This document shows positions 251 through 57,825 of a stretch of 64,000 nt of DNA, one piece after another (position 1 is the stretch's first letter; the number at the start of each line of letters is the position of its first letter). A program made the translations under genes and the position numbers. Origin of the DNA: Candidatus Magnetocorallium paracelense (GTDB taxonomy: Bacteria; Nitrospirota; Thermodesulfovibrionia; Thermodesulfovibrionales; Magnetobacteriaceae); NCBI GenBank assembly GCA_029001845.1, contig JAREWP010000036.1, positions 1-64,000 of the forward strand, read 5' to 3'. The notes under the pieces are model-generated. The model saw only the letters and a program-made list of their open reading frames with translations. It did not search any database and had not been told where the DNA came from.

Positions 251-979
251 TTAGAATTCATTTATTCTTTTCTCATCTATTAAAAATCTATCTTCATCTA
301 AAAATGGGTTATCGCTGGTTATAAGATCATTTAATATATATTTCCAATCTGGAGCATTTTTGTTTAAGTCTTCACTATTGATATCATCAAATAATTTTGT
401 AGAAGATTTTGCCAAGCTGTCCAGTATCCAATCTTTTTGTTGTTTTTTAGATATAGGACGAGGGTATTGTTCTGCTACTTTTTTCCAAGATTCAAACAAT
501 TGCACATACTGTAAAATATCCTTATCAGGATGCTCTGTATCAGTATCAGGTTCATGAATTTTCGTCCCATCTGATAATTCAGTAAATTTTCCGCTATCAA
601 ATGTATACGCTCTCTCACCAACAACTATATTTCCCAATCTCGTTGAATTTTTTTTTCCTGCACAAACTCCTGTCATGGCAATGAATCTTGGATTAAATTC
701 TTCGAGTATGGATTTGAGGTGCAAACTCATGTCAACAGGGCCATACTTTGGTGGCCAAGAGATATGGATTTTAAGTAAATCACCTTTTGAATTGTATAAT
801 TTTCCTCTTTTATATTCTCTTTTATTTTTTGCGAAATCTTTTGAGAATTTTACAATCTCAGTCTCATCAAAAACTTCGATTAAGGCCTTAACCTCTTCAG
901 CCATCGCACATACTATACAAACATCAAAAAAAACTTCGCTTTCATTTTCATTATCCGGAGTAATATCTATTTTACCCAT
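251..979 (-). pseudogene. nucleoside phosphorylase-like protein, apparently 3'-truncated
   Basis: 242 residues. Residues about 18-35 (VCIVCAMAEEVKALIEVF) and about 100-130 (MTGVCAGKK, LGNIVVGERAYTFDSGKF) match the first half of the PNP/MTA-SAH nucleosidase fold, which cleaves N-glycosidic bonds of nucleosides. The family normally continues with a Met-Glu motif near an acidic active-site residue; here the reading frame ends at INEF before any such motif. The stop lies about 65 bases from a transposase start, so loss of the 3' end by insertion is the simplest reading. Related PNP domains occur in phage-defence effectors, which would fit the neighbouring cassettes. No strong ribosome binding site precedes the ATG. 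An intact but divergent short protein is the alternative. Confidence 0.55.
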
Positions 980-1208: not shown

Positions 1209-1258
1209 GGCTAACATGAAAATCAGCAGCGATAGTCTGCTGCATTTTCTGGTTATCT
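1209..1258 (-). other. attC site (integron cassette recombination site)
   Basis: On the plus strand GGCTAAC opens the site and GTTATCT closes it. Inside, GAAAATCAGCAG pairs with CTGCTGCATTTTC, leaving one unpaired base, as expected of an attC stem with an extrahelical base. This is the site that ends the MazF-type cassette and opens the phosphorylase-like cassette. The 229 bases between it and the phosphorylase start (980-1208), and the stretch 1259-1366, show no convincing gene on either strand. Confidence 0.75.
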
Positions 1259-2064: not shown

Positions 2065-3372
2065 CTAATCAGCACCGCAAATATGCTCAATTGATTTGTG
2101 AGCTTTTTCAGCTAAATCAGCCCATGCACCTGCATCATTAATGAAATCCTGAGAATAAAATGTTTTCTTTTCTTCTTCGTTTTTCCATGAATAATGACTA
2201 ATAAATTCACCTAATATCTCTGTAAGCTTACGTTCTTTTTTCAGTCTTAATTTCTCTATTGTGTTAACATCAAAGATACCAATCTCTAGTAATTTGTCTA
2301 ATCGCTTTACAAGAATCTCCTTTTTATCTTTATGTAATGTGAAAACATCCATAGGATTACATTGATCAAGCATTGGATATACTGTAGCCAACAAAGGGGT
2401 CGGATCTACATATTGCTCTATTATGTAATCCGAATGTCCGTCTTCTCTTTGTCTTTCATGAGTTACTCGTTCAACAGTAATAAGGCCTAAAGCAGAAAAT
2501 TGTCCCAAGATTGAATTGTACATACCAGTGAAACTGAGTTTGTTCATTTCATCACCTAAGTAATCATGCAAAAAGTGATTTACAGAGTTTTGTAAGCTGT
2601 TCCCATTTGTTTTTACTGATAATAAAGGGTCGAAAATACTAATATATTGGATACCATTCATTGGATATTTACTTACATAGAAAGTTCTGTCTCTAAGAGT
2701 CTTTACAAACTCATCTGCTTTAATTTTCAAGGTCTCATACTCTTTAATACGAGAATTAAGCCGTTCATTCAACTCTTGTAATTCTTTTACTTGCTCTCTT
2801 AATTTATAATTCTCCTGGAATAAAATATCAAATTGTCCTTTTGAAACTTCCCTTGCTGAACTTGCTCTCACCCATCCTTCCATTGGATACATTTTTATAG
2901 TTTTTGACATGGAAAGTGCCACTAATCCAGGCAGCTCTGATGCATTTTCCCAAAATTTCACTAAACGATTTCTACTAACCTTTTCTTTGAATTGTTTAAG
3001 TTTTTTTTGCGCTTCCTCTGATGATTCAACTAAGTTGAAAGGTAGAAATTCTGGTTTATTATGTATAAAAGCAACTACCTTAATTCCTATTGTTACTGCA
3101 TAATCGTATTCTTTTTCTGTGTAGCTTATGCCATCATTATCTGTTGTGCCATATCGTCCAGCTATGATTAAGAGGTAATAGTCGCAATCATCAATAACTT
3201 TCTTAATGAACTTCCATTGCTCTTCATCAGCCGCTGGAAACAGTTCCATGCCTGCAGGGATGCAGTCCATTTCCATTAGTGTTTGTACTACAGCCTGACG
3301 TTCATCTTTTAAGTCAGCAAATGTTGAACTTACAAAGACTTGATACCTTTTTTTACTTGAATTATCCTTCAT
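2065..3372 (-). CDS. DUF4062 (TIR-like fold) protein with coiled coil
   Basis: 435 residues. The N-terminal domain (about residues 8-110) has [19 protein letters not shown] and the later [20 protein letters not shown], the hallmarks of DUF4062, a domain related in fold to TIR and often fused to defence or STAND proteins. Residues about 180-245 are a charged coiled coil ([20 protein letters not shown]). The C-terminal 190 residues are mostly helical and I do not recognise them. There are no membrane segments or nuclease motifs. It is the only gene between two attC sites, so it forms a single-gene cassette. A role in defence is inferred from the domain and the company it keeps; the activity is unknown. 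Confidence 0.7.
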
Positions 3373-3402
3373 AAAGATTTTCTATTCTTTCTTTTTACCC
3401 AG

Positions 3403-3452
3403 GGATAACAACAAGATAACTTGCGATAGTCAAGTTAATCGTCTTGTTAGAC
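3403..3452 (-). other. attC site
   Basis: Plus-strand GGATAAC and GTTAGAC are the outer boxes. Inside, AACAAGATAACTTG and CAAGTTAATCGTCTTGTT pair around a seven-base loop with unpaired bases on one arm, the standard attC geometry. The stop codon of the CopG-type antitoxin (TAA) lies inside the right box, a common integron-cassette arrangement. Confidence 0.85.
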
Positions 3453-3731
3453 TGCTTCAGTCAGTTTTTCATTTATTTTTTCTTTAAGCCATAAATTTAC
3501 TAATGTTTCAGGTAAAATACCTTTAGCATGAGCTAACTTATCAATGCTATCAGACAATTCTTTTTCAATAGCAAAATAGTTTTTCTCTGATTTCAGTTCT
3601 ACCTCAAACTCTATATCTGTTTGTAGATCTTCGTAATCAGCTAAACTATGAGTGTCCCAAAAGTTCGCAGCTTCTTCTATACTTTTAAATTCTTCAGGTA
3701 ATGAATCTCTTTCTACTTTACTTTTTGCCAT
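3447..3731 (-). CDS. CopG-type antitoxin of a BrnT-like pair
   Basis: 94 residues. FKSIEEAANFWDTHSLADYE is the signature of the CopG_antitoxin family (PF12441). The C-terminal part (LSDSIDKLAHAKGILPETLV, then NLWLKEKINEKL) resembles a ribbon-helix-helix segment used for DNA binding and autoregulation. It lies downstream of the toxin and overlaps it by 14 bases; toxin-first order is typical of BrnT/BrnA modules. Its stop codon is inside the attC site, so the pair forms the end of a cassette. Confidence 0.8.
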   Translation of the reverse strand: MAKSKVERDSLPEEFKSIEEAANFWDTHSLADYEDLQTDIEFEVELKSEKNYFAIEKELSDSIDKLAHAKGILPETLVNLWLKEKINEKLTEAV

Positions 3732-4002
3732 AGCTTTTCCTTTCTTTTGAATCCATATCTCGTGCAGTAACTATTAATGCTTCTTTTGTTAGTTTATAGA
3801 TAAATAACACAGTTAAATATCTACCAGCATTTGTCTGTCCACGAGCAGAATATAAATTCTCCTTCTTAACTTTTCCTTTTTCAATAAATTTTAATTTAGG
3901 TCTATTTTGAAAAACTTCCTCTACTTCTTCTCTGGTTACATTATGTTTCCATAGTAGCTTATCTGTAATGTCTCTATACCATATAAAACTTTCAATTCTC
4001 AA
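3718..4002 (-). CDS. BrnT-like toxin (DUF497 family)
   Basis: 94 residues. WKHNVTREEVEEVFQNRPKL and ARGQTNAGRYLTVLFIYK followed by ITARDMDSKERKSY-like residues (VTARDMDSKERKSYGKK) match the BrnT ribonuclease family, which folds like RelE. The start used is TTG at 4002, preceded by AAGGA at good spacing; no ATG fits. It overlaps its antitoxin by 14 bases. The gene looks intact. A sequence GTTAGTT directly at the start may be the end of a cassette site, but I could not find its partner box upstream. Confidence 0.8.
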   Translation of the reverse strand: MRIESFIWYRDITDKLLWKHNVTREEVEEVFQNRPKLKFIEKGKVKKENLYSARGQTNAGRYLTVLFIYKLTKEALIVTARDMDSKERKSYGKK

Positions 4003-4051
4003 CTAACTATCCTTGGAAATCTTTTTCTTCAATTCTACGTATTTATTTCAC

Positions 4052-4231
4052 ACCTAAAAGTGACAATTAGGTCGAGGACCGAGGATGTAAAAGCAAGTGC
4101 TTAGGCAAGGAGGCAAGGCGGTTTAGGCGCAGGCGTAGCAGAGCTACGTTGAGCACTAAATCGGTGAAGTCCGACGCAGCATAAGTGCTTGATTTTACAG
4201 CCGAATCCCGATCTAATTGTCACTTTAAGGT
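4052..4231. repeat. 180-bp palindromic element with terminal inverted repeats
   Basis: The ends are inverted repeats of about 20 bases (ACCTAAAAGTGACAATTAG at the left; the right end is its complement with one mismatch). A second inner pair (GTAAAAGCAAGTGCTTA near 4088 and its complement near 4180) makes the whole unit a large cruciform. It lies between gajB and the BrnT-like gene where a cassette boundary is expected. It has no coding capacity and looks like a MITE or a REP-type element. The rest of 4003-4262 holds nothing recognisable. Confidence 0.65.
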
Positions 4232-4262
4232 CACATGCAAAATCTGTCTATTATACATCTTT

Positions 4263-6116
4263 TTACCTTAAGTCTGTCTCATACACAAGGTTTGACGATT
4301 TAAGTATTTTATATAAATCCTGAATGGAATTTATACTTTGTGATTCTGGGAGTCCATTACGTCCGGTATTCCTTACCTTACAGTAGGTAAAAATGACACG
4401 TCTTTTTGCCCTTGAAAGAGCTACAAAAAAACCACAAGTTTCCTCTTCAGGTTGCTTTCTAAAATTCCAAAAGGCGCTATCCTCTAAACCGATAAATATC
4501 ACGGTATCATATTCCAATCCTTTACTTTTATGAGTGGTCATAATAGGCACAGCATCTTTACCCATTAAGGATTCAACAGTATCAGCCCAATTTTGCTTTT
4601 TTTCAAAATAATTCCAAAGTTCATCATTTAAAGATTGTAAAGTTTTTGTAAAATAATCTTGATTTCTATACTGTTGATAATATGCTGATAGTTCACTGGC
4701 GCCAAAGAATTCTACAATTTGACAAACAACCTTTTCCATATCCGTTTTATTTTGAATTTTATTAAATGAATCTCTAAATGAATGCAAACTATCTTGCAAA
4801 TCGTTTTCAATTTTTTTTATATCATCTATATCGTCTTCATTTTCATGATAGACTCCACGCAAAATTTTTAAGGCATTCATAATCTCGTTCCATTCATTAG
4901 TTCCTTTGTCTGAAAATATAATATAGATATAGGCACAAATAAGTCTTACAATATCTTCTGTGAGGAAATCTTGTAGCCTGCTTTCATCACGGGCTTCTAT
5001 ACCTAATTCATTGAGATATTCTATTAACTTAGCTCCGTACTTATCTGACTTCATTCTGACCAATATACATATATCATTAGGTTTTAAATTTTCATTTTTG
5101 ATCCAATTATGTATATTTTTAGAAACAACTTCTCCTTCTTGTAAATGGCCATTACAGTACCAAATTTCACAAATCCCTTCATTGTTAAGACAGTTCGTAG
5201 ATTCTTTACATTCTGATTCATCTCCTTCAATATGTTTTGCTAAGATTTGCTGTATCGTAACCAACCTTGGCGCTGAGCGATAATTGACCAGCAAGGTTGC
5301 TTTTTGTGCAGTGAAATCTTGTTCAAAATTCGTAAAGGCATTTTTATCAGCTCCAGCCCAAAGCATAATTCTTTGTTTTTGGTCGCCTACGGCTGTAATA
5401 ATAGTATCTGATTTCAAGAAACATGTTTTTAAAAGATCATATTGAAGGGTAGTTGTGTCTTGATACTCATCTAAAAAAACATGGCTATAGGTTAGTATAA
5501 GGCATTTTCTTAATATTGGATTTACTCGAATAAGATACTCAGCGAGTCTAGTTATCATCTGAAATGTAATAGTGTTTCTCTTAAGCAAATTCTTCCAAAC
5601 TGCGTTTACAACCTGTTCTTTTTTTGAATCTGGGTTAACGCTAAAAAGCAATTTGCTTTCAGTAAGACAGCGATTATGATCGCTGATACTACTACTAAAC
5701 TTTTTATCAACAAGATCAAATTCATACTTTATCTCGTTCATATTTGTAAGTATATTGAAATTTGGCAATGGTTGATAATTTTCAGGTAATGCCCTGTAAA
5801 ACCTATCAATTAAGCCTTTTGCAAATGCGTCATAAGTCAAAGACACAAACCTACTTGATAGTTCTTTTCTGCATCGTTTTCTAACTCGTTCTCCTAAATT
5901 TTTTGCAGCATCTTTCTTAAAGCTGATAGCAAGAATTTTTCGTGGAAATAGACATATTCCTGCCTCAAGTAAATACGAAGCCTTTTGAGCCAGAAGTTCT
6001 GTTTTTCCGGCACCAGGTCCTGCAATGACATATATATTGCTTGTGGCTTTTATTGCATCCAGTGCCTCTGATTCTAAAGTAAATCCATCAACAGGCTGCC
6101 ACTCAAATTCAATCAT
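4263..6116 (-). CDS. gajB: Gabija GajB, UvrD/Rep-family helicase
   Basis: 617 residues, a superfamily 1A helicase. Motif I is VIAGPGAGKTELLA (about residues 31-44), motif II DEYQDTTT (about 216), motif III GDQKQRIMLWAGA (about 243), motif IV NYRSAPRLV (about 277), motif V TTHKSKGLEYDTVIF (about 525), and motif VI VALSRAKRRVIF (about 567). It follows gajA on the same strand with an 8-base overlap, the order found in Gabija. In that system GajA and GajB form a complex; GajB senses or processes DNA ends and nucleotides while GajA nicks DNA. The length is slightly above the roughly 500 residues usual for GajB. The gene looks intact. A solitary UvrD-like helicase is the alternative, but the overlap argues against it. 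Confidence 0.85.
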   Translation of the reverse strand: MIEFEWQPVDGFTLESEALDAIKATSNIYVIAGPGAGKTELLAQKASYLLEAGICLFPRKILAISFKKDAAKNLGERVRKRCRKELSSRFVSLTYDAFAKGLIDRFYRALPENYQPLPNFNILTNMNEIKYEFDLVDKKFSSSISDHNRCLTESKLLFSVNPDSKKEQVVNAVWKNLLKRNTITFQMITRLAEYLIRVNPILRKCLILTYSHVFLDEYQDTTTLQYDLLKTCFLKSDTIITAVGDQKQRIMLWAGADKNAFTNFEQDFTAQKATLLVNYRSAPRLVTIQQILAKHIEGDESECKESTNCLNNEGICEIWYCNGHLQEGEVVSKNIHNWIKNENLKPNDICILVRMKSDKYGAKLIEYLNELGIEARDESRLQDFLTEDIVRLICAYIYIIFSDKGTNEWNEIMNALKILRGVYHENEDDIDDIKKIENDLQDSLHSFRDSFNKIQNKTDMEKVVCQIVEFFGASELSAYYQQYRNQDYFTKTLQSLNDELWNYFEKKQNWADTVESLMGKDAVPIMTTHKSKGLEYDTVIFIGLEDSAFWNFRKQPEEETCGFFVALSRAKRRVIFTYCKVRNTGRNGLPESQSINSIQDLYKILKSSNLVYETDLR

Positions 6117-8172
6117 TATTATCCTCTATATCTCTATTTATTGCTTCAGTTGCCCCTGAATAAGGATCATCTTTCAGTATTTCCCTTACTTTCTCTATAA
6201 GGTCTTTTAGGAAGAGTGGTAAGCTTTTTTTGAATTTCTCGTTATCAATTTTCGATACAGCCATTATATGTGTGCCTGGCTTTCCACGATTCAGAAAAAG
6301 ATACCTATACCACGGCATTAGTAATTTATCATCCTCAGAATAGGTATAGCCTTCACCTCCTTTTTCTCCCAAGACAGAGCTAATAGCTTTTTTTATATAT
6401 TCAGTCTTTTTGTTTTCATCGTTTGGAATATTAGGGCCTTTTGAATCTATTATTTTTTTATATTCCTCAGAAAAAGCTTTGAGCATTGCAAAGTCTAAAT
6501 CAAGCGGCGCTGCAAAAAAAACATTATAACGCTTCATATATTCAACACACGAGGTTAAGCGCTCCATATCTTCTGCGTTGTTTAATTGGCAGTTATTAGA
6601 CATAGCTTCGAGACAATCTTTTCCCCGTGATTCATTTAAAAGAATTTTTCTATCAACGCCATTTTCAATAAGTTGTGTACAAGCATATTTTATTCGTCCC
6701 CATCCACCGCCATCTCTTTCTGAATCCAAATCGAGTAAGGTTAAATATGGGATATTAAGTTGGTTAAGCAGCTTCCAGAAATGATTCACATATCGACCGC
6801 CTAAAGGAACGATACTGACTCCACTATAATCAACGTCATATCCATATGCTTCCATTGCCTTTGAAATGATAATTTCCTCAGTGTCGCCTTCCCCCAATAT
6901 AACAAGTCTGGCAAAATATATTTCAGGATAAGCTTTTACCGCTTCTTTGACAAACTTATGCGCCTCATCATTTGCTTCAGGCAATTTGATATGGCTTACA
7001 ATAGTAGAGTGATTCTCTTTAGATATTCGCAGATGACGTATTGCTGCTGGATCAATTCGTTTTACAATGGCAGGCGTATGGGAAGTAATCAAAACTTGGG
7101 TATTGTCTCCATTAGCTAAGGACTTAAGTCGCTCGATTATCCTTCCAAGAAGTTGAGGAGCAATATGATTCTCAGGTTCTTCAACAGCCAGAATAGTTAA
7201 TGATGGTGGATTATAATTCTCTTTCCAAAAATTAACGTCTTCTCCTTTTTGAAATAAACCCTCAAGATGAAGAAGAGTATTAACCAAAGAAAAATAAAAC
7301 AACGAACGAAGTCCCTCTCCTAAATGATCAATTTCATAACTCCGCTCTGTTTCTGTGGGATAAAATTCGACTTCCACTTTTTGTAAAATAGAAGAAAGAT
7401 CGCTACTGCTAAATTTGACTTTGGCCTCTGTATACCGAATATCGCTATGCAAACGTTTCCATTGATCTGCAAGAACTTGTCTGAGTGATTTAACGCCTCG
7501 CTCGTTATCGAAGATTTTGTCTATCTCATCTGATTTGCTCTTTAGTTCGGAAGCAATTTCATCACTCCACTTTATACCATTTAGGATGCGCCAAAGAATT
7601 GTACCTGAAGCATTTCTAAGCTGCCTGGATGGTTCTCTAATTGCAGGCACGTACATTAATTGAATTTGAGCTCGATGCTCTGGCTGCAAGGGAATTTTGT
7701 GCTCATCTTTAATTTCTTCATTTTCTTCTTCTGGATGATTAATAAACCATAGTTTTGTTTCTATTTCTCCCTCAGGAGTATTTCCTTTTTTCCATGTTGC
7801 TTCCAGACGTATGCGAATATAAGGCGGCTGCCCATTGCCATCTATTAATAATCTTTCAAAAAAGGGAGGTATGGTACGCTTAGCAACATGCTCTTTCCCA
7901 CTTTTCGTCTCTGGAAAATCAATAACTGACTCTATGTGTAGATCGCTCTCTTCTATGTCTTCTGGAGTCTTGTTTGATGGCACATGGAAATCAGAGCGAT
8001 ATAACATACGATCTCCACGGGCAGTTCCGAATAACTTTTGAAGAGCTTGGAGTACAGCAGTCTTTCCAGCGCTGTTTGCTCCGATAAATGCAGTTAAATC
8101 TTTTAGAGCAATGTTTGATTTTTCAGGGCCGAAGCACCTGAAATTTTTTATCTTGATATTTCGAATTCTCAT
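6109..8172 (-). CDS. gajA: Gabija GajA, OLD-family ATPase-Toprim nuclease
   Basis: 687 residues. The N-terminal ATPase has IKNFRCFGPEK (residues 9-19), Walker A GANSAGKTAVLQAL (about 31-44) and Walker B LAVEEPENHIAPQLLG (about 336). The C-terminal Toprim domain shows VILGEGDTEEIIISKAMEAY (about 424) and LLDLDSERDGG (about 478), with the glutamate and paired aspartates that bind metal. GajA is a sequence-specific nicking enzyme held in check by nucleotides and released when phage replication depletes them. The ATG lies four bases after the attC site, with almost no leader, as in integron cassettes. It overlaps gajB by 8 bases. No truncation is visible. Confidence 0.87.
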   Translation of the reverse strand: MRIRNIKIKNFRCFGPEKSNIALKDLTAFIGANSAGKTAVLQALQKLFGTARGDRMLYRSDFHVPSNKTPEDIEESDLHIESVIDFPETKSGKEHVAKRTIPPFFERLLIDGNGQPPYIRIRLEATWKKGNTPEGEIETKLWFINHPEEENEEIKDEHKIPLQPEHRAQIQLMYVPAIREPSRQLRNASGTILWRILNGIKWSDEIASELKSKSDEIDKIFDNERGVKSLRQVLADQWKRLHSDIRYTEAKVKFSSSDLSSILQKVEVEFYPTETERSYEIDHLGEGLRSLFYFSLVNTLLHLEGLFQKGEDVNFWKENYNPPSLTILAVEEPENHIAPQLLGRIIERLKSLANGDNTQVLITSHTPAIVKRIDPAAIRHLRISKENHSTIVSHIKLPEANDEAHKFVKEAVKAYPEIYFARLVILGEGDTEEIIISKAMEAYGYDVDYSGVSIVPLGGRYVNHFWKLLNQLNIPYLTLLDLDSERDGGGWGRIKYACTQLIENGVDRKILLNESRGKDCLEAMSNNCQLNNAEDMERLTSCVEYMKRYNVFFAAPLDLDFAMLKAFSEEYKKIIDSKGPNIPNDENKKTEYIKKAISSVLGEKGGEGYTYSEDDKLLMPWYRYLFLNRGKPGTHIMAVSKIDNEKFKKSLPLFLKDLIEKVREILKDDPYSGATEAINRDIEDNND

Positions 8173-8175
8173 GTA

Positions 8176-8235
8176 CTTTAACGAGGAGTTGAGCAGTGGA
8201 GCGAATGCGGAATCTGCTCAAACGATTTGTTATCT
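8176..8235 (-). other. attC site
   Basis: A clear 60-bp site. Plus-strand outer boxes are CTTTAAC and GTTATCT, with perfectly complementary inner boxes TTGAGCAG and CTGCTCAA and a central loop. The gajA start codon follows almost at once. Nearly the same inner boxes recur at 17819-17878, so the two sites share ancestry. The 210 bases 8236-8447 downstream of the membrane-protein gene hold no gene I can see. Confidence 0.88.
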
Positions 8236-8852
8236 CTGATTCTCTTAGAGTTTATGCAGCTCTTATTTATTTTTCTTTTCTGATATATTTTTCTACAATA
8301 CCATCTACTGTTTATTTATTATAAGCCATTGATGTCTTTCTTTTGAGTAATCTAATGTGTCAATTCTATACTGAAGTAAGAATCGTATCATTGCTACTGG
8401 CCATAATTCATGATTTAAAAACTTCTATCCCTAATTGACGCAATATGTTAAAATATACTAATTATCAAGATAAAAACTATTCCGAATAAACCACTCAGCT
8501 TCAAATAACCGATAGCATTGATAATATCCAAATACTTAGTTGAGGCTACGACAGCATTATTATATGATTGATCATTCAACTCATCAATAATTTTTTCTTC
8601 ACCCATCTCTGCTATTGCTTGTTTAAAGTTCTGGATTTCCATATCCTTTATTGTTTCAAAAAACAGCACTGATTTTCTAGAAGATTTAGGAATTAATTTT
8701 GGCGTAATTACTCTAATTAGTTTGATAATTCCCATAATAGCAAAGATAAAATAAAATAAAAATATAATGATTAGAATGACAGCTAATAACCAATGTAATT
8801 TATTGATAGCAGTGAAATATTTGTAAATATCATTTGATGCACTAGTGTAATG

Positions 8853-9515
8853 TCAACTATCAAGTGTCGGATAAAGCCTGGATAGTTTTATTCGAGCATC
8901 TTCTGTAGTAAATTGCCAGTTGACTTTTGCATTTTTGTTATTTCTGCATTCCTGCCATGCAAGAACTTCTCGCCTGACTACAGAGATGTCATCAATCCTT
9001 CTGTTTAAGCACTGTGCAGTGAGCACATTCAACTCTATTTCAGCCATGTTTAACCAACTGCCATGCTTAGGGGTATATACAAATTCAAACCTGTCCCATA
9101 TGGCTTTTGCCTTGTTTGCCTCAAACGCTTCATAGAGAGAACCGGGATTATGAGTATTCAGATTATCCATAACCAGCGTTATTTTTTCAGCACTTTTGTA
9201 TTGTCCGGCAATCTCTTCAAGAAAACAAGCCCAGTCCCTTTTGGCTTTTTTTTCTGTAATTGTTACCATTCGTTTCCCGGCTAATGGCTCACAGGCAAGG
9301 AATATATTATATACACCGCAACGCCTATACTCATAGTCATACTTAACAGGCTGCCCGGGTGATGCAGGAACAGGAGACTTTGTCTCTGCTATAAGCTGCT
9401 TTGGTGATTCGTCCATACATACTACCGGATAGTTTGAATCATATGGTCGCTTATATACATCAAGCACCATTTCCATATTTGCTACAAAACTGCCGTTTTC
9501 TTTCGGTGGAATCAC
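8853..9515 (-). CDS. IS630 transposase, catalytic part
   Basis: 220 residues as an open frame. It carries the DDE triad: Asp in VVCMDESPKQ (about residue 34), Asp in LVMDNLNTHNPGSL (about 116) and Glu in SWLNMAEIELNVL (about 155). The segment starting IPPKENGSFVANMEMVLDVY matches the middle of IS630 transposases, so this is not a separate protein: its N-terminal part lies in the preceding frame and the product is expected by frameshifting at the A run (9547-9554). The ATG-like start overlapping the first frame by 4 bases is unlikely to be the functional start. Confidence 0.85.
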   Translation of the reverse strand: MIPPKENGSFVANMEMVLDVYKRPYDSNYPVVCMDESPKQLIAETKSPVPASPGQPVKYDYEYRRCGVYNIFLACEPLAGKRMVTITEKKAKRDWACFLEEIAGQYKSAEKITLVMDNLNTHNPGSLYEAFEANKAKAIWDRFEFVYTPKHGSWLNMAEIELNVLTAQCLNRRIDDISVVRREVLAWQECRNNKNAKVNWQFTTEDARIKLSRLYPTLDS

Positions 9516-9991
9516 CCATCCCTTTCTTTGCCAGGGCTTAATTTCGTTTTTTTTAGTATGCGACGTATCGCTTCATGGGATATACTATCAATATACTCAA
9601 GTTCAATTGCCTTATCTGCTAATAACCTCAATGACCATCTTGCAAAACCTTCAGGTGGTTCACTACAACTTAATGCAACTAAATGGGCTTCAAATTCTCC
9701 ATCCGGCTTTTTTCCATATATACGACTGCCCTTCCTCCCATTAAGTGCAACATCAATACCTCCTTCCACAAATCGCTTCTTAACACGGTCAATCTTTTTC
9801 ATACTTATATTAAGCACTTTGGATATCTCTTCGTTGATTGAACGGCTTTTTTGATATTCACCCTCATCACAAGCCAATAAAATCAAGGCATTAAGTATTT
9901 TCTGCGACCTATGTTTACCTTTGCTTGTTAATGTAACTAAACCATTACGCTCATCCTCAGTAAGTGTTACAGTATAAATTTTCATAACCAA
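9512..9991 (-). CDS. IS630 transposase, DNA-binding part
   Basis: 159 residues. The N-terminal half has paired helix-turn-helix features (SRSINEEISKVLNISMKKID), followed by RVKKRFVEGGIDVALNGRKG, typical of IS630 DNA-binding regions. Near residue 145 the codons read CTA AAA AAA ACG; slipping back one base on the eight-A run (plus-strand T run 9547-9554) gives LKKNEIKPWQRKGWVIPP, which continues in the catalytic frame. The family norm is one fused protein of about 350 residues, so a -1 programmed frameshift is inferred. Without the slip the frame ends at KERDG. Confidence 0.85.
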   Translation of the reverse strand: MVMKIYTVTLTEDERNGLVTLTSKGKHRSQKILNALILLACDEGEYQKSRSINEEISKVLNISMKKIDRVKKRFVEGGIDVALNGRKGSRIYGKKPDGEFEAHLVALSCSEPPEGFARWSLRLLADKAIELEYIDSISHEAIRRILKKTKLSPGKERDG

Positions 9992-10288
9992 AGACTCCTT
10001 TTGCTTGATTATGAAAATATTTTAACATATATTATACGACATTATATAGTTGACATGACACTAGGTATTACTGTAAAAAATGCTGAAAAGAGAGCTAATG
10101 CTATAGTTAAGATAAAACTGGCTTTCCTATCAGCAAAAAATATCCAATCTATTATTGTTTTGAGATTAAATTGAGCAAGCTCAATATTATATGATTTGCT
10201 CATAGAATGCCCCTTAAATTTTGGAATTCTCTACTTTGCCTTGACTTTGTGGTTTTTCATTAACCATTGCCTAATGAAAATGTGATGC

Positions 10289-13009
10289 TTACTTTTTCGT
10301 CACATTACTTTCTTTTTTTATAATATGATCTGAATTGATTCTATTAGACAATGCCATCATTAGCTCTGGTGGCCAGAATCTGAAGAGATCTATAACTTTG
10401 TCCCAGTCATCTCCGAGATTTTTATCTAGCCATTTCTGTGCATCATTTTCATTCAACCATTTTGGAAATGTGAGCTTGACAAGACCTAATTTTGCTGCTG
10501 AATTCTTCTTTTCTAGTTCCTTACATTTTTTAATAGCATCGGACTTATCTTTAATAAGCGATGTTAATTCATGAACATCAACAAATAAGGCTAAAGCTCT
10601 TGACGATGCAGGACTAACTTGAAGTGCTTTTGTAAAGCACTCCTTAGCTTGTTGAGGCATCCCAAACGTCATGTACATATCACCAAGGTAAAAATAAGCG
10701 TCTTCTCTATTAGGGTTCAAGCGAGTGGCTTTCTGATACCATGATATAGATTTTTCTATTTGTGAGATAGCATGCTTTTCATTTGAAATATTTACATTTA
10801 TTTTTAAGATACGTCCAAGATTTAACATATATTCATAACAAAGATCTGAATACTTGACCACAAAACGATCACTATTAATAATTGATACCATTTTTCCATA
10901 CAAAATGTAGGATTTCTGCACTAATTCATTTCCCACCAACGCTGTGAGCTTGGTACCATACATTGCAAGAGTACCAGCCAAAGTGTCTATTGTCTGCACA
11001 ATCTTCTCCTCAAGCCACTCTGGATTAGAGCGATTCAGGACATGAGCAATAAGCTGATTATTGGTATAAAGAATATCTACTACTGTCTTTTTTATACGAT
11101 CTTTTTCATATGAACCACATATTTGGAACAAGTCATATACAGAGCCACCTGTTTTAGGATCATAACCAAGGTAAAACCAGGCGCAACGTTCGAGAATACC
11201 AATCACATTTTCAATCGTATCCACATCATAAATCTGATCTTCTGTAATTCCTTTTTCTTTTAAATATGACAAATCTCTATTCAAATAGTCACGAATCTCG
11301 GGAATAAAGACTGTCAGAATCATGGGATTGATGTCACGGTCAGCTAGAGACCTGACTAGATTGGGAAGTGTTCTCTCCCAGTAAAACTCACGTACTCCTG
11401 GTTTAAATGGCACATGAATATATCCCTTCCTTGAGTAGATAAAGTGCTCTTTCATTCCAATTGTTGATGAAAATAGATTTGCTATGGGTGCCACAGCCGT
11501 TATTTCTGGATTGGCTAACACAAAAGGCATAAGGTTAGCTGTTGAACAGAGAAGCGTCCTCTCTAAAAGAACTTTAGCTCTATATGCATTGTCGGCTAAC
11601 TCAGTCATTCTGTCATCTAATGAATATCGTTCAAGAGCCCAATCCCGGATGCCTTTATATGTATTGATAGGTCGACCAGTCTCCAGTAGCTCTTTAGCAT
11701 AGAACATACGTAAAACGGCCTTTCCTATTAGATTTTCTCCACGTTTTATCAACTTCTCCCCATCTAACTTCCCTTGATGGACAGATTTCCAGCCGTCAGC
11801 CCTTTTGCTAAAGCCAATTGATAGATCACGCGAAGCTACCAGAGCCAACTCGAACCATTCGTGTCGATGAATTGTTTCAGGGAGTTTCATTTCCTTGAAT
11901 ACATCTTTACCCTCTAAAAGGACAGCTGTTGCCTTTTCATAGTGCAGTAGAGTATCACTTGCCAAACCACTCCAACCATCAAGAGCAAGTAGATCGTACG
12001 GAGTCGATGAGGAATAATAGTTCTCTCGCTCGTCTTTGTGCTTATATAGCCACAGAAAATCAGATAGATCCCCTTTCATGAAAGGCCGAATATTCTCATA
12101 CCACTCAATAGGCTTAGGCCAGAGATGTATATCGGAGCCTGTTTCATAGGTTTTTATTACTTCTCTTTCAATGTCCTGAAGAAGGTGTATAATTTGTTGG
12201 TGTATATTAATATCTTTAAATAGAGATAGTGGAATTAGAACGACAAGGTCTATATCAGAGTAATCATTACATTCATCCAAATTGGTGTAACTGCCTATGA
12301 CATAGAGTGAGCATATGAAATGCATGTTGTCAGGAGAAGTATTGTCAAGAAGGAGGAATCTATGTAACCGATTAACCACACAAGAGATTTTGGGCTCAGC
12401 TAGCAATTGAGACCTACTTTTTTTAGGCATACTTATAGGGATTTCATTGTTTGTCTTACTCTTTCCAGCAAAAAATTTTATTATCGCGCCAGTTTTTTCA
12501 TCATACACATTCCAACCACCTGCAATCATCTCTCTGACAACTTCCAGATTTTTTTTTGCACTATAATATGTTGAATCAATTTCTAAAGCTTTTCTAAAAT
12601 TTTCTTCCGCTTTTTCTAAATCATCTTCTTCACTATAATAAGACTCTTTTCGTTGTGTTTTACTTAATAATGCAGATCCTAGGTTATTATGTGCTTTCAT
12701 AGCAATATCTGATCTTATGTCTTCCTTTGCTTTTAATTTAGGTAAATCCTGTATTGTGTGTTCAAATTCTTTGATTGCCTCTTCTATTCTATTATTATTA
12801 TAATGGAAAGTTCCTAAATTATAGTGAACAATCGCTGTGTAATCTCTATTTACGTCTAATTTCAATGCTTTGTTATAAGCATCCATTGCTTCATCATTTC
12901 TCCCTATTCCTTGTAGAGTATCTCCTAAATTATAGCATGCTAAAATATCTTGAGGATTTTCTCTAATCTGTTTTTGAAACTCCTCAATTTGTATATCATC
13001 ACTTGACAT
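10289..13009 (-). CDS. TPR protein with an internal nucleotidyltransferase domain
   Basis: About 906 residues. The start chosen is the ATG at 13009, which has GAGAGGTGAT at good spacing; a GTG at 13018 is the alternative. Residues about 1-170 hold TPR repeats (ILACYNLGDTLQGIGRNDEA, IVHYNLGTFHYNNNRIEEA). At about 235-265 lies YVIGSYTNLDECNDYSDIDL, the GS...DxD motif of Pol-beta-type nucleotidyltransferases. The central part is helical and unassigned. TPR units return near residues 750-830 (REDAYFYLGDMYMTFGMPQQ). The arrangement suggests a sensor scaffold around an NMP-transferring enzyme; a defence or toxin role is inferred from cassette context. Its last part abuts the interrupted membrane-protein gene and no clear attC separates them (10204-10288), so the two may share one cassette. 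Confidence 0.7.
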   Translation of the reverse strand: MSSDDIQIEEFQKQIRENPQDILACYNLGDTLQGIGRNDEAMDAYNKALKLDVNRDYTAIVHYNLGTFHYNNNRIEEAIKEFEHTIQDLPKLKAKEDIRSDIAMKAHNNLGSALLSKTQRKESYYSEEDDLEKAEENFRKALEIDSTYYSAKKNLEVVREMIAGGWNVYDEKTGAIIKFFAGKSKTNNEIPISMPKKSRSQLLAEPKISCVVNRLHRFLLLDNTSPDNMHFICSLYVIGSYTNLDECNDYSDIDLVVLIPLSLFKDINIHQQIIHLLQDIEREVIKTYETGSDIHLWPKPIEWYENIRPFMKGDLSDFLWLYKHKDERENYYSSSTPYDLLALDGWSGLASDTLLHYEKATAVLLEGKDVFKEMKLPETIHRHEWFELALVASRDLSIGFSKRADGWKSVHQGKLDGEKLIKRGENLIGKAVLRMFYAKELLETGRPINTYKGIRDWALERYSLDDRMTELADNAYRAKVLLERTLLCSTANLMPFVLANPEITAVAPIANLFSSTIGMKEHFIYSRKGYIHVPFKPGVREFYWERTLPNLVRSLADRDINPMILTVFIPEIRDYLNRDLSYLKEKGITEDQIYDVDTIENVIGILERCAWFYLGYDPKTGGSVYDLFQICGSYEKDRIKKTVVDILYTNNQLIAHVLNRSNPEWLEEKIVQTIDTLAGTLAMYGTKLTALVGNELVQKSYILYGKMVSIINSDRFVVKYSDLCYEYMLNLGRILKINVNISNEKHAISQIEKSISWYQKATRLNPNREDAYFYLGDMYMTFGMPQQAKECFTKALQVSPASSRALALFVDVHELTSLIKDKSDAIKKCKELEKKNSAAKLGLVKLTFPKWLNENDAQKWLDKNLGDDWDKVIDLFRFWPPELMMALSNRINSDHIIKKESNVTKK

Positions 13010-13019
13010 TTCTATCACC

Positions 13020-13130
13020 TCTCAACAGGAATTGCGAGCCTAATGCCGACTTAGAGTGGGATCCACTCAGTTCGGCGTTGTCCACGGAGCAAAGCTGTGG
13101 GAAAAAGTTAGGTGCATTGATTTGTTATGC
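13020..13130 (-). other. attC site, long form
   Basis: The plus-strand outer boxes are TCTCAAC and GTTATGC, with an imperfectly paired 111-bp stem between them (GCACCTAA-type box near 13113 against TTAGGCTCGCA near 13033 when read on the minus strand). The stop codon of the HEPN gene (TAA) lies inside the right box, and the downstream gene starts 10 bases past the left box. The size matches long attC sites such as those of Vibrio superintegrons. Confidence 0.75.
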
Positions 13131-14279
13131 GCTTTTACCATTTTTATATTCGATTTCTATCTGTTTTAATGACTCAATCTTGATTTTACAGGTTTGCTTG
13201 GTTAAAGATAATAATTTCTCCACCTCAGATTTCCAATAATCAATTTCATACGGTTCAACGGTGAAGCTTCTGACATATCTTGCTCCGATATAAGCCAAAT
13301 TCAATTTGTCAAAACGTTTTTGTTGTTCTTCGTTTTCAAGCAGGAAGATCTCCTTCAAAAGAGGCTCGTATTTTTCTGCCTCATTTCGTAGTGAATACAA
13401 ATCATGCTCATCAGCAGCGTAATGAGTGTAAACCAACAAAATACATTTATAGCACATTTCACAAACTTGCTCTAAATCAAAAGATGCCATTTTAAGTTCA
13501 TTATCATTCTCAGCATGTTTGGCCTGCTTCCAAAAGCTTTGTGCTTGTTTAAACCATCCTTCAAACTCATCTTCAGCATGTTGTCTGCGGATTGTGGGAT
13601 TAATTTCGTCAGGGGGATTAGAAAGATTGTATTTGCCAGTGTCGTACAAAACAATACCTTCTCGTTTAATATCAGAGTAGAAATACTGATTTTCTTCCAA
13701 TCGTTTGTTGATTTCACCTATTTGTTCTACAATAATTTGCACAGGCAAGTTTAACTCTCTTACTCTTTTACGTATTTTGATCTCGGCACTGCCGGTTATT
13801 TTAGGAGGAGCAAATCCTCTCTAAGATTTCTCTATCTTATGTTTTTCATCAGGTTGATTTATTACGGGTCAACCGGAACTGGTGTGGTGATTTAATCAGA
13901 AGAAACTTATGCCATCCAGGTCTGTGCTGAGATGTTGAATATCGAATATCGAACAAGGAATGTCGAATTATGAAGTATTATATTCCTTCCTTCTATATTC
14001 ATCATTCCTTGTTCGATATTCGATATTTTAAACCTTACATCACCACAGCAGTTCCGGTTGATCCTTTATTACTACTAAAATATCATAATCACTTCTGCGT
14101 TGTACTATAGAGTCTCCAATATCAACAATTTGTCCGTTTTTAAAGTCTCCCCGCGCATATGAGCCATACAATATGATCATCTCAGCTAATTTTGTTTTGA
14201 CAATCCTATCCTTGATCAAATCCAATTCGACAATTTTATCTTGCAGCAATTTGCTTAATTTTTCATTGAGATGTATCAT
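13125..14279 (-). pseudogene. nucleotidyltransferase-HEPN fusion gene, split by a MITE and carrying a stop
   Basis: The N-terminal part, from the ATG at 14279 (AAAGG upstream), has IILYGSYARGDFKNG and RRSDYDILVVI, the GSxxRG...DxD motif of a minimal nucleotidyltransferase. The C-terminal part (NKRLEENQYFYSDIKREG, then a HEPN domain with SFWKQAKHAENDNELKMASF and CILLVYTHYAAD) is typical of MNT-HEPN fusions, here about 300 residues in all. A 199-bp element interrupts it at 13866-14064; removal restores the frame (VVINQPDEKHKIEKS), but a TAG follows near 13822. MNT-HEPN proteins act as toxin and NMP-transferring antitoxin, usually as two genes. This copy is dead twice over. A TTG at 13748 could allow translation of the HEPN part alone. 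Confidence 0.8.
13866..14064. mobile_element. 199-bp MITE with 8-bp target duplication
   Basis: Terminal inverted repeats GGGTCAACCGGAACTGGTGT (left) and the complement of GGATCAACCGGAACTGCTGT (right). Both sides carry TTTATTAC (13858-13865 and 14065-14072), an 8-bp target duplication. The inner part is a second palindrome around 13935-14030 (GAATATCGAATATCGAACAA against its complement). No coding capacity. A short stretch with the same terminus lies near 40720-40742, so a parent element probably exists in the genome. Confidence 0.85.
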
Positions 14280-14434
14280 TTTTACCTTTTAAAAACTGGA
14301 CTACTTAAATTCACTCATTTGATAAGCCTTAAGTTTTCTTTTTTTTAATGAAGAATTCTATCGTTTTATTCTTTCAAATACATATAGAGTTTTATTTTCC
14401 AATATCACCAATCAACGCTGCAAAATTGAAAGAT

Positions 14435-14628
14435 CGATAACGCCGAGGATGAGGAGCAGTTGAACTGCCTGCTCCATTCGTTGGTTGGCTGACGGTGGAG
14501 TATTGATGATGGAGGTAATGCTACGCTCCTCATCCTCGGCGTTGGCTGGCGTCAGCCAGCCAACATTAAGCTCACCTGCGGCAATGGAGCGCAGTGGAAT
14601 TGCCGTCTGGTGCAGCGCCTTGTTAGAT
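14435..14628 (-). other. two adjoining attC sites
   Basis: The right site (14558-14628) has plus-strand boxes AGCCAAC and GTTAGAT, inner boxes AGCTCACCTGC and GTGCAGCGCC, and a GGCAAT/ATTGCC stem. The left one (14435-14547) has CGATAAC and GTTGGCT with a 19-bp perfect stem (ACGCCGAGGATGAGGAGC against its complement). Only about 10 bases separate them, so any cassette between them is gone or empty. Bases 14280-14434 upstream of the nucleotidyltransferase-HEPN gene hold nothing recognisable. Confidence 0.75.
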
Positions 14629-14648: not shown

Positions 14649-15641
14649 TCAATAGTTCGCCACATGTAGGGCTTCAAGAAATAATTGTGCTCGGTGCTCG
14701 TCACTAACTCCATCCCATGTTGATTTGAAAATTTCAAATGCTCTTCGATTAAGTTGAATCGGTTTTGCCAACTCCTCATCTTTCGTGATCGCAGCATCTT
14801 CAATAGAAGGCAATTTTGCGGTACCAATAATCGCATTACTTATACTTTCCTTTTCCAAGGTACCGAGTTGTTTTTCCAATGCCTTTGCGGTTGTTGAGGA
14901 TACCCAAATTTGTACAGTATCGTAATCAATTGTTTCACTTTGAACCCGAAAATAATATAAATTTTCATCTGAAGGTGCTGGCACATCAAAGTATGGTTGT
15001 ATCTTGATTCCAGCACTAGTAGTTACTGAATACCTCTTTTTGTTAGTATTCCGTTCGTAAATCCATAGACTCTTGCTACCTTTTCTTGCACCCTTGGGTG
15101 GAGTTTCATTCCATTCCGCAAAATATTCAGTTGGCTGCGGTGCAATTAATGGCTCTTCAAAATATAGGAACTCGGTCAATGAATCCTCCCACAAAAGCCA
15201 TCCGATTCGCATATCAGGTTCTATACCCTCAAAGCTTTCCCTCACCTTTTCAGTTCGAAGATCGATTAATTCTGCATATTGTAGAAATACATCCTCCATT
15301 ACCTTCTCAGCAGGTAGGTTAGTATTTTCTATTCTGATTGATCTTGTTGCTGCTGGATGCATCATTGTTGTACCGCATACGGTTTTAATTGGACGCCCCC
15401 TAAGTGCAGACACGCGTAATAGTTTTTGTTCAACTCCTAAGCCTGCATGGTTAACATCAATGTTTAGGTTACTCCAGCCATAGTGTGGGATGTCCTTTGC
15501 GCCACAATAGACCTTGTTCCAGTCATCTTCTTCAAGTTTTCGACCCATCATATGAGCTACTTGGGTTGCAAGAAGTATTTTTGCTTTCTTATATTCTTCG
15601 GGTGAAAAAGCATTTAATGTTGCATTATACTTATTCGACAT
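14649..15641 (-). CDS. probable restriction endonuclease paired with the methyltransferase
   Basis: 330 residues, starting one base after the methyltransferase stop, so the two are translationally linked. I do not recognise a family motif with certainty. Visible features are an N-terminal helical segment (FSPEEYKKAKILLATQVAHM), a stretch with conserved-looking Trp/Tyr residues (PHYGWSNLNIDVNHAGLGVE, where ExK follows in VEQKLL), and a central beta-rich region. The DVNHAGLGVEQKLL stretch could be a PD-(D/E)xK-like active site. The size and position match type II enzymes. The call rests on context; a modification-dependent accessory protein cannot be excluded. The stop codon lies about 20 bases from the attC site. 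Confidence 0.55.
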   Translation of the reverse strand: MSNKYNATLNAFSPEEYKKAKILLATQVAHMMGRKLEEDDWNKVYCGAKDIPHYGWSNLNIDVNHAGLGVEQKLLRVSALRGRPIKTVCGTTMMHPAATRSIRIENTNLPAEKVMEDVFLQYAELIDLRTEKVRESFEGIEPDMRIGWLLWEDSLTEFLYFEEPLIAPQPTEYFAEWNETPPKGARKGSKSLWIYERNTNKKRYSVTTSAGIKIQPYFDVPAPSDENLYYFRVQSETIDYDTVQIWVSSTTAKALEKQLGTLEKESISNAIIGTAKLPSIEDAAITKDEELAKPIQLNRRAFEIFKSTWDGVSDEHRAQLFLEALHVANY

Positions 15642-15642
15642 T

Positions 15643-17796
15643 TTATTGAAACCCTAACTTGATATGTTTTTCCATCAGTTTCTTAAAACTTAAGAAATCT
15701 ACGAGTTTATGTTCTTTTGGTAGCGCATATGCTAACCACTCGCTATATAGCCTGCGGAGATCTATTTCATTTTTACGTTTTACATGTAAATATTCTATTG
15801 TTGGTATGCTTTGTTCTCTACTTTTTATGAACTCTGAAATAGACTTGCTATACGATAAACATTTTGTTTTTCTATCTATACTCTCATCTGGTAGTGGTTT
15901 CCGGCAGTGCAGTACCAAATCACAGCCAGCAGTGTTATTACTAACAAACTGCTTGAAGGTTCCATGCTGTTTATCAAAAATGTCGAGACGCTCTGTAATG
16001 AACCCAGCCTGTCTTACCGCTGCCTTTAATGCATCCCAAACTTTTCCTGAAGAGTTCATGAACACCAATAGCATCCAATTTCCTGGCCGTAAAACACGGT
16101 AACATTCACGAAGGCTTTCCAGCATAAGTTTCTCATACTCAACAAGGCCTTTGCCTTGTGCTCTATTTACAATTGCCTCATTTTTATCATCTGTAAATTC
16201 ACCAAGCCAAGATTCCCAAAGAATATTCATCTCTGAATAATTAATATTTGCCCCAAATGGAGGGTCTGTAAATATAAAGTCAATGGAACTATTTGGCAGG
16301 TAACTTAATTCAGTAGCAGAATTGCAAAAAACTGCCTTTTTCCCACTGTAGTTAATAGCTGTGGTCTCCAAGTGATCTAAAATACTAGCTGCCTTCCGTT
16401 CAAAAGTAACAAACACATTGGCTTCGTTAAATATAAATGGCACATTAAATCGAGCGGTGTTTCCACTGCCACCCCAAAATCTGAATTCAGAAAGACGGGT
16501 AACCCGCTGATACAAAGATGTAAAAACAAAAGCTACAGCAGATGAAAGGTGGACATCATCTAATCTATGAATTTCCCGCCATAGCAAGCTCATGGCTGAT
16601 AGATTTCGGCAAGTATAGAACTTATCTATTGAATTCAGACCGTGCTTGATTGGCTGATTAAGATTGACTCCTTTTTTCAACTTTGTGGTTGGGTAGAAGC
16701 CTTTTTGCAAGTATTGTCCAGATTCCGCCTCTTCAATTCTTTTAAGATCTGCTTGATTTAAGGAGTGTTCTATTTGTTTTTTTTCGCAACACTTGTAACC
16801 TAGTATTACTGGCTCAACAGTTGTACGAGAAAGTTGACGTTTCTTAAGAGTCTCTCCGCATGAGGGACAGGAAAACTCTTTTAGTATTTTATGCTCTCGA
16901 ACTGTTTTTCCGTATTCCCTGCAATGCTCCCAAAGCAAAAATTCAAAATCACAAATCGGACAAATTACACGATACGACCAAACTGTATACAGTATTTCTG
17001 TAGTTTTACCACATTCACGACATTCAGTTGCATAAAGACGGTTCCTTGTCTCGTTGACACCAGCTAATACCATCTTAACTGCTGCCCAAAATTCAGCAGG
17101 GGAAACAGACTCAGTGAAATTATGACTGATAAAACTAGCGGCTGGTGAAAGTTCATTCAATATTACATCTACGTCTGCAATACGAGCAGCAACCCCTGTC
17201 ATCCCACTACCAGAAAATGGATCGAATACTACACCACCTTCAGGCAAATAATTCTCAATAAATTCAACTATCCCTTGTGGAGGGACCTTTGTGTGGTAAG
17301 TATGTGCATCATATGTATATGTATTTTTACCTGCTGATACTTCTATATGTCTTGCTGTTTTTACCGTTTTCGCAGGTTTTGAGTGTGCTTTTAGAATTTC
17401 ATTTAAAGATTGGTGAGCATTAGAAATAGCGTTACCATCTTTAATTATCGAGAGGATAGGTTTCGAGGGAGCTATGTTAATAGTTACTACAGGTGGTGGT
17501 GATGAAAATAGGTTAGCTTGGTTATTGTTTAGTGCATTTCTAGTTGAACCTCTTGAAGCAAACGAACCGTTTTGCAGAACCAATGAACTTTTCTTAAATT
17601 TTAAGCCACGATTAGATTTTTCAAACAACTCCGAGATAATTTTCTGTTGCTTTGAGGATGGAACCGCACTACTACGCTCCCACTGTTCTATAGCAACAAG
17701 AGATGTACCAATTAACTGTGCCAGTTCTGGTTTTGTAATTCTAGCTTTCTCTCGTATTGCTCTAAGTAAATCTACTGTTGATTTTTCTGTATGCAT
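15643..17796 (-). CDS. DNA methyltransferase with N-terminal helix-turn-helix and zinc-ribbon insert
   Basis: 717 residues. Residues about 8-55 form a Xre-type helix-turn-helix (KARITKPELAQLIGTSLVAI). The SAM-binding motif is FDPFSGSGMTG (Asp about 192) and the catalytic motif TDPPFGANINYSEMN (Asp about 511), as in N6-adenine/N4-cytosine methylases of the SAM-motif-first order. Between them lie paired CxxC knuckles (CRECG, CPICD, CPSCG; about 250-330), probably part of target recognition. The protein would protect host DNA from the nuclease gene just downstream. The fused helix-turn-helix may repress its own promoter, like controller proteins in R-M systems. Together the two genes fill one 3.2-kb cassette. 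Confidence 0.82.
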   Translation of the reverse strand: MHTEKSTVDLLRAIREKARITKPELAQLIGTSLVAIEQWERSSAVPSSKQQKIISELFEKSNRGLKFKKSSLVLQNGSFASRGSTRNALNNNQANLFSSPPPVVTINIAPSKPILSIIKDGNAISNAHQSLNEILKAHSKPAKTVKTARHIEVSAGKNTYTYDAHTYHTKVPPQGIVEFIENYLPEGGVVFDPFSGSGMTGVAARIADVDVILNELSPAASFISHNFTESVSPAEFWAAVKMVLAGVNETRNRLYATECRECGKTTEILYTVWSYRVICPICDFEFLLWEHCREYGKTVREHKILKEFSCPSCGETLKKRQLSRTTVEPVILGYKCCEKKQIEHSLNQADLKRIEEAESGQYLQKGFYPTTKLKKGVNLNQPIKHGLNSIDKFYTCRNLSAMSLLWREIHRLDDVHLSSAVAFVFTSLYQRVTRLSEFRFWGGSGNTARFNVPFIFNEANVFVTFERKAASILDHLETTAINYSGKKAVFCNSATELSYLPNSSIDFIFTDPPFGANINYSEMNILWESWLGEFTDDKNEAIVNRAQGKGLVEYEKLMLESLRECYRVLRPGNWMLLVFMNSSGKVWDALKAAVRQAGFITERLDIFDKQHGTFKQFVSNNTAGCDLVLHCRKPLPDESIDRKTKCLSYSKSISEFIKSREQSIPTIEYLHVKRKNEIDLRRLYSEWLAYALPKEHKLVDFLSFKKLMEKHIKLGFQ

Positions 17797-17818: not shown

Positions 17819-17878
17819 CTCTAACAATGAGTTGAGCGGTGTAGCGATAGCGGAGTCCGCTCAAACGACTGGTTATCT
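17819..17878 (-). other. attC site
   Basis: Plus-strand boxes CTCTAAC and GTTATCT; inner boxes TTGAGCGG and CCGCTCAA are exact complements around a 19-base centre that is itself partly paired. It resembles the site at 8176-8235 closely. It ends the PIN-toxin cassette and opens the restriction-modification cassette. Confidence 0.88.
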
Positions 17879-20887: not shown

Positions 20888-20936
20888 GTATAACGAGAAC
20901 GTTGAGCAGCTTTGCCTCTCCAACGCCTGGTTATCC
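20888..20936 (-). other. attC site, short
   Basis: Plus-strand boxes GTATAAC and GTTATCC, with inner CGTTG and CAACG boxes around a 16-base loop. It opens the TIR-protein cassette, whose start codon lies about 24 bases away. Confidence 0.65.
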
Positions 20937-21281: not shown

Positions 21282-21347
21282 TGATAACGGCTGGCTTAAC
21301 CAGAGCCGCGTTTTTCAGCGGCGTCTGCGTTAAAGCCATGGTTAGCT
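21282..21347 (-). other. attC site, classical
   Basis: The best-formed site of the array: plus-strand TGATAAC and GTTAGCT outer boxes, inner GGCTGGCTTAAC and GTTAAAGCCATG, with a GCCGC/GCGGC hairpin at the centre. Inner boxes pair with one unpaired base on one arm. The stop codon of the membrane-protein gene lies inside the right box. Confidence 0.92.
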
Positions 21348-21756: not shown

Positions 21757-21846
21757 GGCTAACGATCAGCTCACCGACCGCAGAAAAGCAAAGTGAGCGG
21801 AAGCTAACACCGCTTTTATGCAGTCCGGTGTAGCGCTATGTTATGA
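21757..21846 (-). other. attC site
   Basis: Plus-strand boxes GGCTAAC and GTTATGA, with AGCTCACCG and CGGTGTAGCGCT inner boxes and a 90-bp imperfect hairpin with GTGAGCGG-type internal pairing. It ends the HNH cassette and opens the membrane-protein cassette. Confidence 0.78.
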
Positions 21847-23417: not shown

Positions 23418-23679
23418 TTTCTAATATTAGACATTTATGTCTATATACAGAAACTTATTTCTAATAATAGAAACAATGGAAATGTCTAATATTAGAAATT
23501 TCCATGATTTTATGGCTTAGCTGTTCTTTATTTCTATTATTAGAAACTTATGTCTATATATAGAAATTATTTGTATTATTAAAAATTCTTTGAACTTTCC
23601 AATATTAGAAAGTTTTATGATTGCCTGCCTCAATCACCTTTTATTTCTGATATTAGACATTTATTTCTATATTTAGAAA
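23418..23679. repeat. ordered array of ten 16-bp palindromes
   Basis: Ten matches to TTTCTAATATTAGAAA or variants with one to five changes begin at 23418, 23438, 23458, 23483, 23531, 23551, 23571, 23596, 23644 and 23664. Spacing runs 20, 20, 25, 48 and repeats, giving a 113-bp higher-order unit in about 2.4 copies. The sequence between units has drifted (ATGATT is shared), but the spacing has not. The 20-bp pitch puts three sites per unit on nearly one face of the helix. The best reading is a protein-binding array, either an operator or an iteron- or centromere-like site. No protein in the window is an obvious partner. Confidence 0.8.
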
Positions 23680-23681
23680 TT

Positions 23682-23730
23682 AACTCCTGAGCTAAGCCTC
23701 CAGCATAGTTGGGGGCTTAGCTCAGGAGTT
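23682..23730. other. perfect 17-bp hairpin with attC-like ends
   Basis: AACTCCTGAGCTAAGCC and its exact complement enclose a 15-base loop. The outer bases read ATTAAC on the left and GTTATAA on the right, like attC outer boxes. True attC stems have unpaired bases; this one has none, so it may be a transcription terminator (no U tract follows), a structural element, or a modified attC. It lies between the palindrome array and the integrase stub. Confidence 0.5.
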
Positions 23731-57814: not shown

Positions 57815-57825
57815 CCGCCAATACC

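Follow-up and report, generated by a model that had tools for sequence, protein, structure and literature searches.

Gabija systems, as represented by the PADLOC profiles for GajA and GajB and by the solved complexes 8jqb and 8sm3, consist of a gene for an AAA/TOPRIM nuclease and an adjacent gene for a UvrD-like helicase which follows it. The gene pair described here shares this arrangement and the preserved catalytic motifs. It differs from the known systems in the greater length of both proteins, in its likely location on an integron cassette and in the BrnT/CopG-type genes which lie downstream.

Integrons have been described as stores of defence genes (Darracq 2025, Getz 2025, Kieffer 2025, as reviewed in PMC12409362). 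According to this review, defence systems on cassettes are reduced in size, and those with more than two genes are absent. The array analyzed here is likewise delimited by attC sites and its defence genes are read in one direction, but in contrast to the reviewed cases Gabija is present at full length, and a unit next to it had three genes or more. The array also resembles a CALIN, that is, an attC cluster without an integrase gene, in that no integrase gene lies in the window (the whole 64-kb stretch of DNA that was analyzed, to which all coordinates without a contig name refer). However, the attC spacings around the Gabija site amount to 4.7 and 6.3 kb, which exceeds the limit in the usual rule, by which two or more attC sites have to lie within less than 4 kb of each other (PMC9668308). 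Under this rule the attC site at 8176 would stand alone, and the Gabija cassette would be missed. Excision has been reported with inserts of up to 3,060 bp and without a sharp drop at 500–800 bp (PMC5371416). This result makes large cassettes plausible, while 4.8 kb lies beyond its tested range. No Gabija system inside an integron was found in a limited look at the literature, and the supplements of Darracq, Getz and Kieffer 2025 may hold one. Each component of the locus and the storage of defence systems in integrons (2025) are known; the unshortened Gabija and the cassettes above the 4-kb clustering limit are new.

Identification of gajA and gajB

The gene gajA (6109–8172, minus strand, ATG at 8172) encodes an OLD-family ATPase/TOPRIM nuclease of 687 amino acids. 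Directly downstream lies gajB (4263–6116, minus strand) which encodes a UvrD-like helicase of 617 amino acids. Both genes overlap by 8 bp (6109–6116), in agreement with the eight bases given in an earlier reading of the DNA (hereafter the sequence-only reading). In the profile search which that reading had proposed, GajA matched PADLOC PDLC00090 over residues 1–668 (E 5.7e-253) and GajB matched PDLC00103 over residues 5–610 (E 8.9e-222). The Pfam domains were AAA_15 and OLD-like_TOPRIM for GajA and the N- and C-terminal UvrD helicase domains for GajB.

An alignment with six homologues revealed intact Walker A, Walker B and TOPRIM motifs in GajA, with G31, G36-K37-T38, E331-E334, E428/E432, D481/D483 and K631/H635 as invariant residues. 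E428 was aligned to E379 of B. cereus GajA, while the conservation of the C-terminal K631 was judged among the homologues and not by reference to the B. cereus residue. In GajB the helicase motifs GPGAGKT, DEYQD, VGD.KQ, HKSKGLE and SRA are preserved. Judged by its sequence, the gajA-gajB pair is a complete and apparently intact Gabija system; the claim of a complete pair holds, as both proteins matched the PADLOC profiles end to end and their motifs are intact.

Detection and placement of attC sites

Candidate attC sites were obtained by a box-and-hairpin scan, and all of them are located on the minus strand. Their orientation was assigned from the order of the boxes and from the higher model scores on this strand. 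Eight sites (six of the window, two of contig C30), among which 8176–8235 was not included, were aligned and turned into a covariance model that follows the attC fold. For training, the sequences were given shorter and partly masked loops, and their structure was assigned manually. This model found the held-out site at 8176–8235 with 34.9 bits and an E value of 7.8e-8, on the minus strand only. The site forms the attI-side end of the Gabija cassette and has its cut point between 8182 and 8181. Its R′ box GTTAAAG occupies 8182–8176 and is separated by 3 nt from the ATG of gajA. The sequence-only reading had described a well-formed attC site four bases before gajA and had named a failure of models to detect it as a refutation; the site itself was recovered, and only the gap had to be corrected.

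The attC site which closes the Gabija cassette is located at 3403–3452 (minus strand, cut point between 3409 and 3408). It scored 59.9 bits as a member of the training set and its DNA hairpin showed a z value of −4.8. A further site at 1209–1258 (minus strand, 60.7 bits, also a training member) closes the next cassette with its DUF4062 and PemK/DUF2281 genes. The hairpin scan and the covariance model placed the other sites of the array at 14558–14628, 17819–17878, 20888–20936, 21282–21347 and 21757–21846, all on the minus strand. The site at 20888–20936 gave an E value of 0.01 when held out, and that at 21757–21846 scored weakly although it was a training member, so that the hairpin scan is its main support. 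A candidate noticed by eye near 1965–2030 was discarded, being without support from the covariance model.

In the whole genome the covariance model yielded 19 matches at E ≤ 0.01, compared with 0 at this threshold in 18 members of its family, whose genomes served as a specificity control. An Rfam search for attC matched no family and gave one chance match with an E value of 0.61. All eight attC sites of the array lie on the minus strand, as do the genes, and five of the eight are found at most 30 nt upstream of a gene start on the same strand, a position shared by 2.3% of all positions (binomial 3e-7).

The palindrome between gajB and brnT

A 180-bp palindrome at 4052–4231, to which no strand is assigned, carries 23-nt terminal inverted repeats and is flanked by GTG on both sides. 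Eleven other copies of at least 134 bp with 83–97% identity are present in the genome, and 3-bp direct repeats were observed at the edges of eight of the nine copies inspected, GTG/GTG being those of the window copy. The dispersed copies, the inverted ends and the 3-bp target duplication identify the palindrome as a MITE-like insertion. Moreover, the high identity to copies on other contigs ties this contig to the genome. Further strong palindromes at 13948–14017, 14435–14547, 23678–23734 and 57825–57946 are possibly other MITE-like elements.

The sequence-only reading had taken the palindrome for the downstream boundary of the cassette and had proposed an attC covariance search in 4000–4262. 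With filters off, the model found nothing in the gap between gajB and brnT, the palindrome included. As a dispersed repeat without AAC...GTT boxes and without a model match, the palindrome was ruled out as an attC or VCR-like site. The empty site, which is obtained by joining the flanks from the gajB stop to the brnT start (83 nt), is free of AAC and forms only a weak fold (−5.7 kcal/mol). Thus, no attC site was split by the MITE-like insertion, and the proposed boundary had to be abandoned.

Extent of the Gabija cassette

Downstream of gajB follow a brnT-like toxin gene (3718–4002, minus strand, 94 amino acids; Pfam BrnT_toxin 37.3 bits, cut-off 34.5) and a gene for a CopG-type antitoxin (3447–3731, minus strand, 94 amino acids; Pfam CopG_antitoxin 37.1 bits, cut-off 28). 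A second BrnT copy was not found in the genome. The stop codon of copG is located within the attC site 3403–3452, the end of the gene and the attC site overlapping by 6 nt. Between the cut points the unit extends from 3409 to 8181, i.e. over 4,773 bp, with the gene order gajA-gajB-brnT-copG. The attC sites at its two ends (8176–8235 and 3403–3452, minus strand) share one orientation, and its genes abut them, gajA starting 3 nt past the R′ box and copG ending inside the next attC. We therefore consider it likely that the four genes form one large integron cassette, in which a Gabija system that seems intact precedes a toxin-antitoxin pair of the BrnT/CopG type. Such a cassette would have been mobile as one unit in the past. 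A size far above that of usual cassettes had been noted before, but the figure of about 3.9 kb was too low. Similarly, the suspected fusion with the BrnT/CopG pair was right in so far as both pairs share one unit that ends at the distal attC 3403–3452, and wrong in drawing a boundary at the palindrome.

Other units of the array

The array, which is a chromosomal one, comprises seven units between eight minus-strand attC sites at 1.2–21.8 kb. From low to high coordinates the units measure 2194, 4773, 6382, 3261, 3069, 394 and 475 bp. The GC content is 35% in the array versus 43% in the remaining window. Since the window begins at the end of the contig, the array is incomplete.

The 6382-bp unit at the attI side of the Gabija unit (8182–14563, minus strand) contains genes for a HEPN protein (13125–13748), for a TPR protein (10289–13018) that weakly matched a nucleotidyltransferase/cyclase and for a split PycTM protein. 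The C-terminal half of the latter (8448–8735, minus strand) covers profile positions 65–154, and a 53-amino-acid open reading frame at 10042–10203 may represent its N-terminal part. Open reading frames for an IS630-type transposase (8853–9991) lie between the two PycTM parts, so the PycTM gene appears to have been split by this element. The 3261-bp unit encodes, at 14649–17796 on the minus strand, a methyltransferase of 717 amino acids followed by a protein of 330 amino acids which matched no family and is possibly an undescribed restriction partner of the methyltransferase. The 3069-bp unit encodes a TIR-ATPase-TIR protein and a PIN-domain protein (PADLOC candidate PDC-S70). At the distal end, a nucleoside-phosphorylase-like protein (251–979, minus strand; PADLOC PDC-M60C, E 4e-21) and a DUF4062 protein (2065–3372, minus strand) are encoded in distal cassettes; both are possible defence effectors.

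Integrase genes and further attC sites of the genome

No intI gene was found in the 64-kb window, a functional intI with attI does not stand beside the array, and the draft genome has no intact integrase gene left for it. The only full-length intI found (contig C68, 1654–2595, within L036 region 1120–2600) carries one in-frame TAA upstream of the C-terminal catalytic portion with its HTFRH and Y motifs, and the attC model had no match on C68. Contig C30 holds a second array (L037, 6038–10959) in which two strong attC sites at 8108–8156 and 10901–10959 are preceded by a C-terminal integrase fragment. A shorter C-terminal fragment is located near an attC site on contig C42. Single attC sites were seen on nine further contigs, and C13 carries another two (L069, L070–L078); several of them adjoin small toxin-antitoxin-like genes.

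Relatives of gajAB

No match to gajA was obtained in 59 relatives at E ≤ 1e-20, and a phylum sample of 295 genomes contained one homologue with 37% identity. Viral contigs contained no gajAB. A plasmid search returned 54 gajAB-related records, all below 60% identity, and two Vibrionaceae plasmid loci showed no integron genes by annotation. The nearest relative found, with 54% identity, is that of Clostridium prolinivorans. It does not lie in an integron and is preceded by a large helicase-like gene which appears to resemble a restriction subunit.

The search for the same gajAB beside other attC sites, suggested by the sequence-only reading, remained without a convincing result near homologous gajAB; one weak match (E 0.04) was seen at a partial GajA relative (L032), with a model that is tuned to the attC sites of this genome and may miss other types. 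The 15 other proteins of the array had no match at the fetched GajAB loci L021–L024, L047, L067 and L068. Thus, the relatives do not share these flanks. The occurrence of gajAB outside integrons but with the same flanks, which would have spoken against a cassette, was not observed; the flanks are unrelated. Among the genomes searched no other one carries the Gabija cassette.

Proposed function and expression

By analogy with known Gabija systems, gajAB would provide Gabija-type defence. GajA would be kept inactive by nucleotides, GajB would be a helicase which is switched on by DNA ends, and the GajA-GajB complex would cleave DNA once phage replication depletes the nucleotides. The BrnT/CopG toxin-antitoxin pair may stabilize the cassette or the array. 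The MITE-like element inserted itself between the two gene pairs, probably at a time when the cassette already existed.

The start of gajA is only 9 nt away from the recombination point, which leaves no room for a promoter or a ribosome site at the 5′ end of the cassette. Therefore, expression would have to rely on sequence from the upstream neighbour. A promoter scan of 3300–8800 gave no excess over shuffled sequences (19 versus 21.2). The gene is probably expressed via the 212-nt gap upstream of the attC site or by read-through.

Alternative explanations

The strongest competitor of a single cassette is a fusion of two, in which gajAB once possessed its own attC site, since deleted to a relic, while BrnT/CopG was a separate toxin-antitoxin cassette. 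A GTTAG at 4003–4007 stands directly before the brnT start, much as gajA starts 3 nt after an attC box, and small toxin-antitoxin genes, including a BrnT-like open reading frame in L071, adjoin other attC sites of the genome. This GTTAG could be a relic R′ box or a chance occurrence. No L″, R″ or L′ box is left, however, the 83-nt empty site without AAC folds with only −5.7 kcal/mol, the attC model finds nothing in it with filters off, and by chance alone a few percent of gene starts would have a GTTA nearby. Such a fusion is rather unlikely, though it deserves to be taken seriously. Entry of gajAB into an old attC array by transposition or homologous recombination, with its place between attC sites a coincidence, is clearly less probable. 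It would fit the presence of an IS630-type element and a MITE in the array, the inactivated integrase gene and the GajAB homologues elsewhere which were not seen in integrons, but it accounts poorly for a gajA start 3 nt after an attC box and on the strand shared by the entire array. Furthermore, no transposon ends or target duplication bracket gajAB, the sole duplication found being that of the MITE.

With regard to function, the pair might be a merely Gabija-like OLD-nuclease/UvrD-helicase without Gabija action. Both proteins exceed the solved B. cereus chains in length (687 and 617 versus 578 and about 494 amino acids). As a single sequence GajA matched solved GajA weakly (E 2e-11), and by sequence GajB was closer to PcrA/Rep. 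Against this, the Gabija profiles are the full-length top matches by a wide margin, the GajA alignment profile covers positions 1–558 of the solved GajA chains (E 6e-20), and the gene order gajA-gajB is that of the known systems. We regard a pair without Gabija action as very improbable, and a Gabija system on one cassette with the BrnT/CopG pair remains the preferred reading.

Implications

The array contains units of 3.1–6.4 kb with two to four genes each, among them a full-length Gabija, which contrasts with the reviewed picture of size-reduced systems and an absence of larger ones. Tentatively, and with less than even confidence, we suggest that multi-gene defence systems of operon size, not shortened, are stored in the integron arrays of some environmental bacteria, here Gabija, nucleotidyltransferase/PycTM, restriction-modification-like and TIR/PIN. 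Such systems would have been overlooked because surveys accept an attC site only with at least one other at a distance of less than 4 kb, and would thus discard the lone site beside the Gabija cassette. If such arrays are common, a 4-kb clustering distance for attC sites would lead surveys to count too few of these cassettes, and integrons could move whole defence operons.
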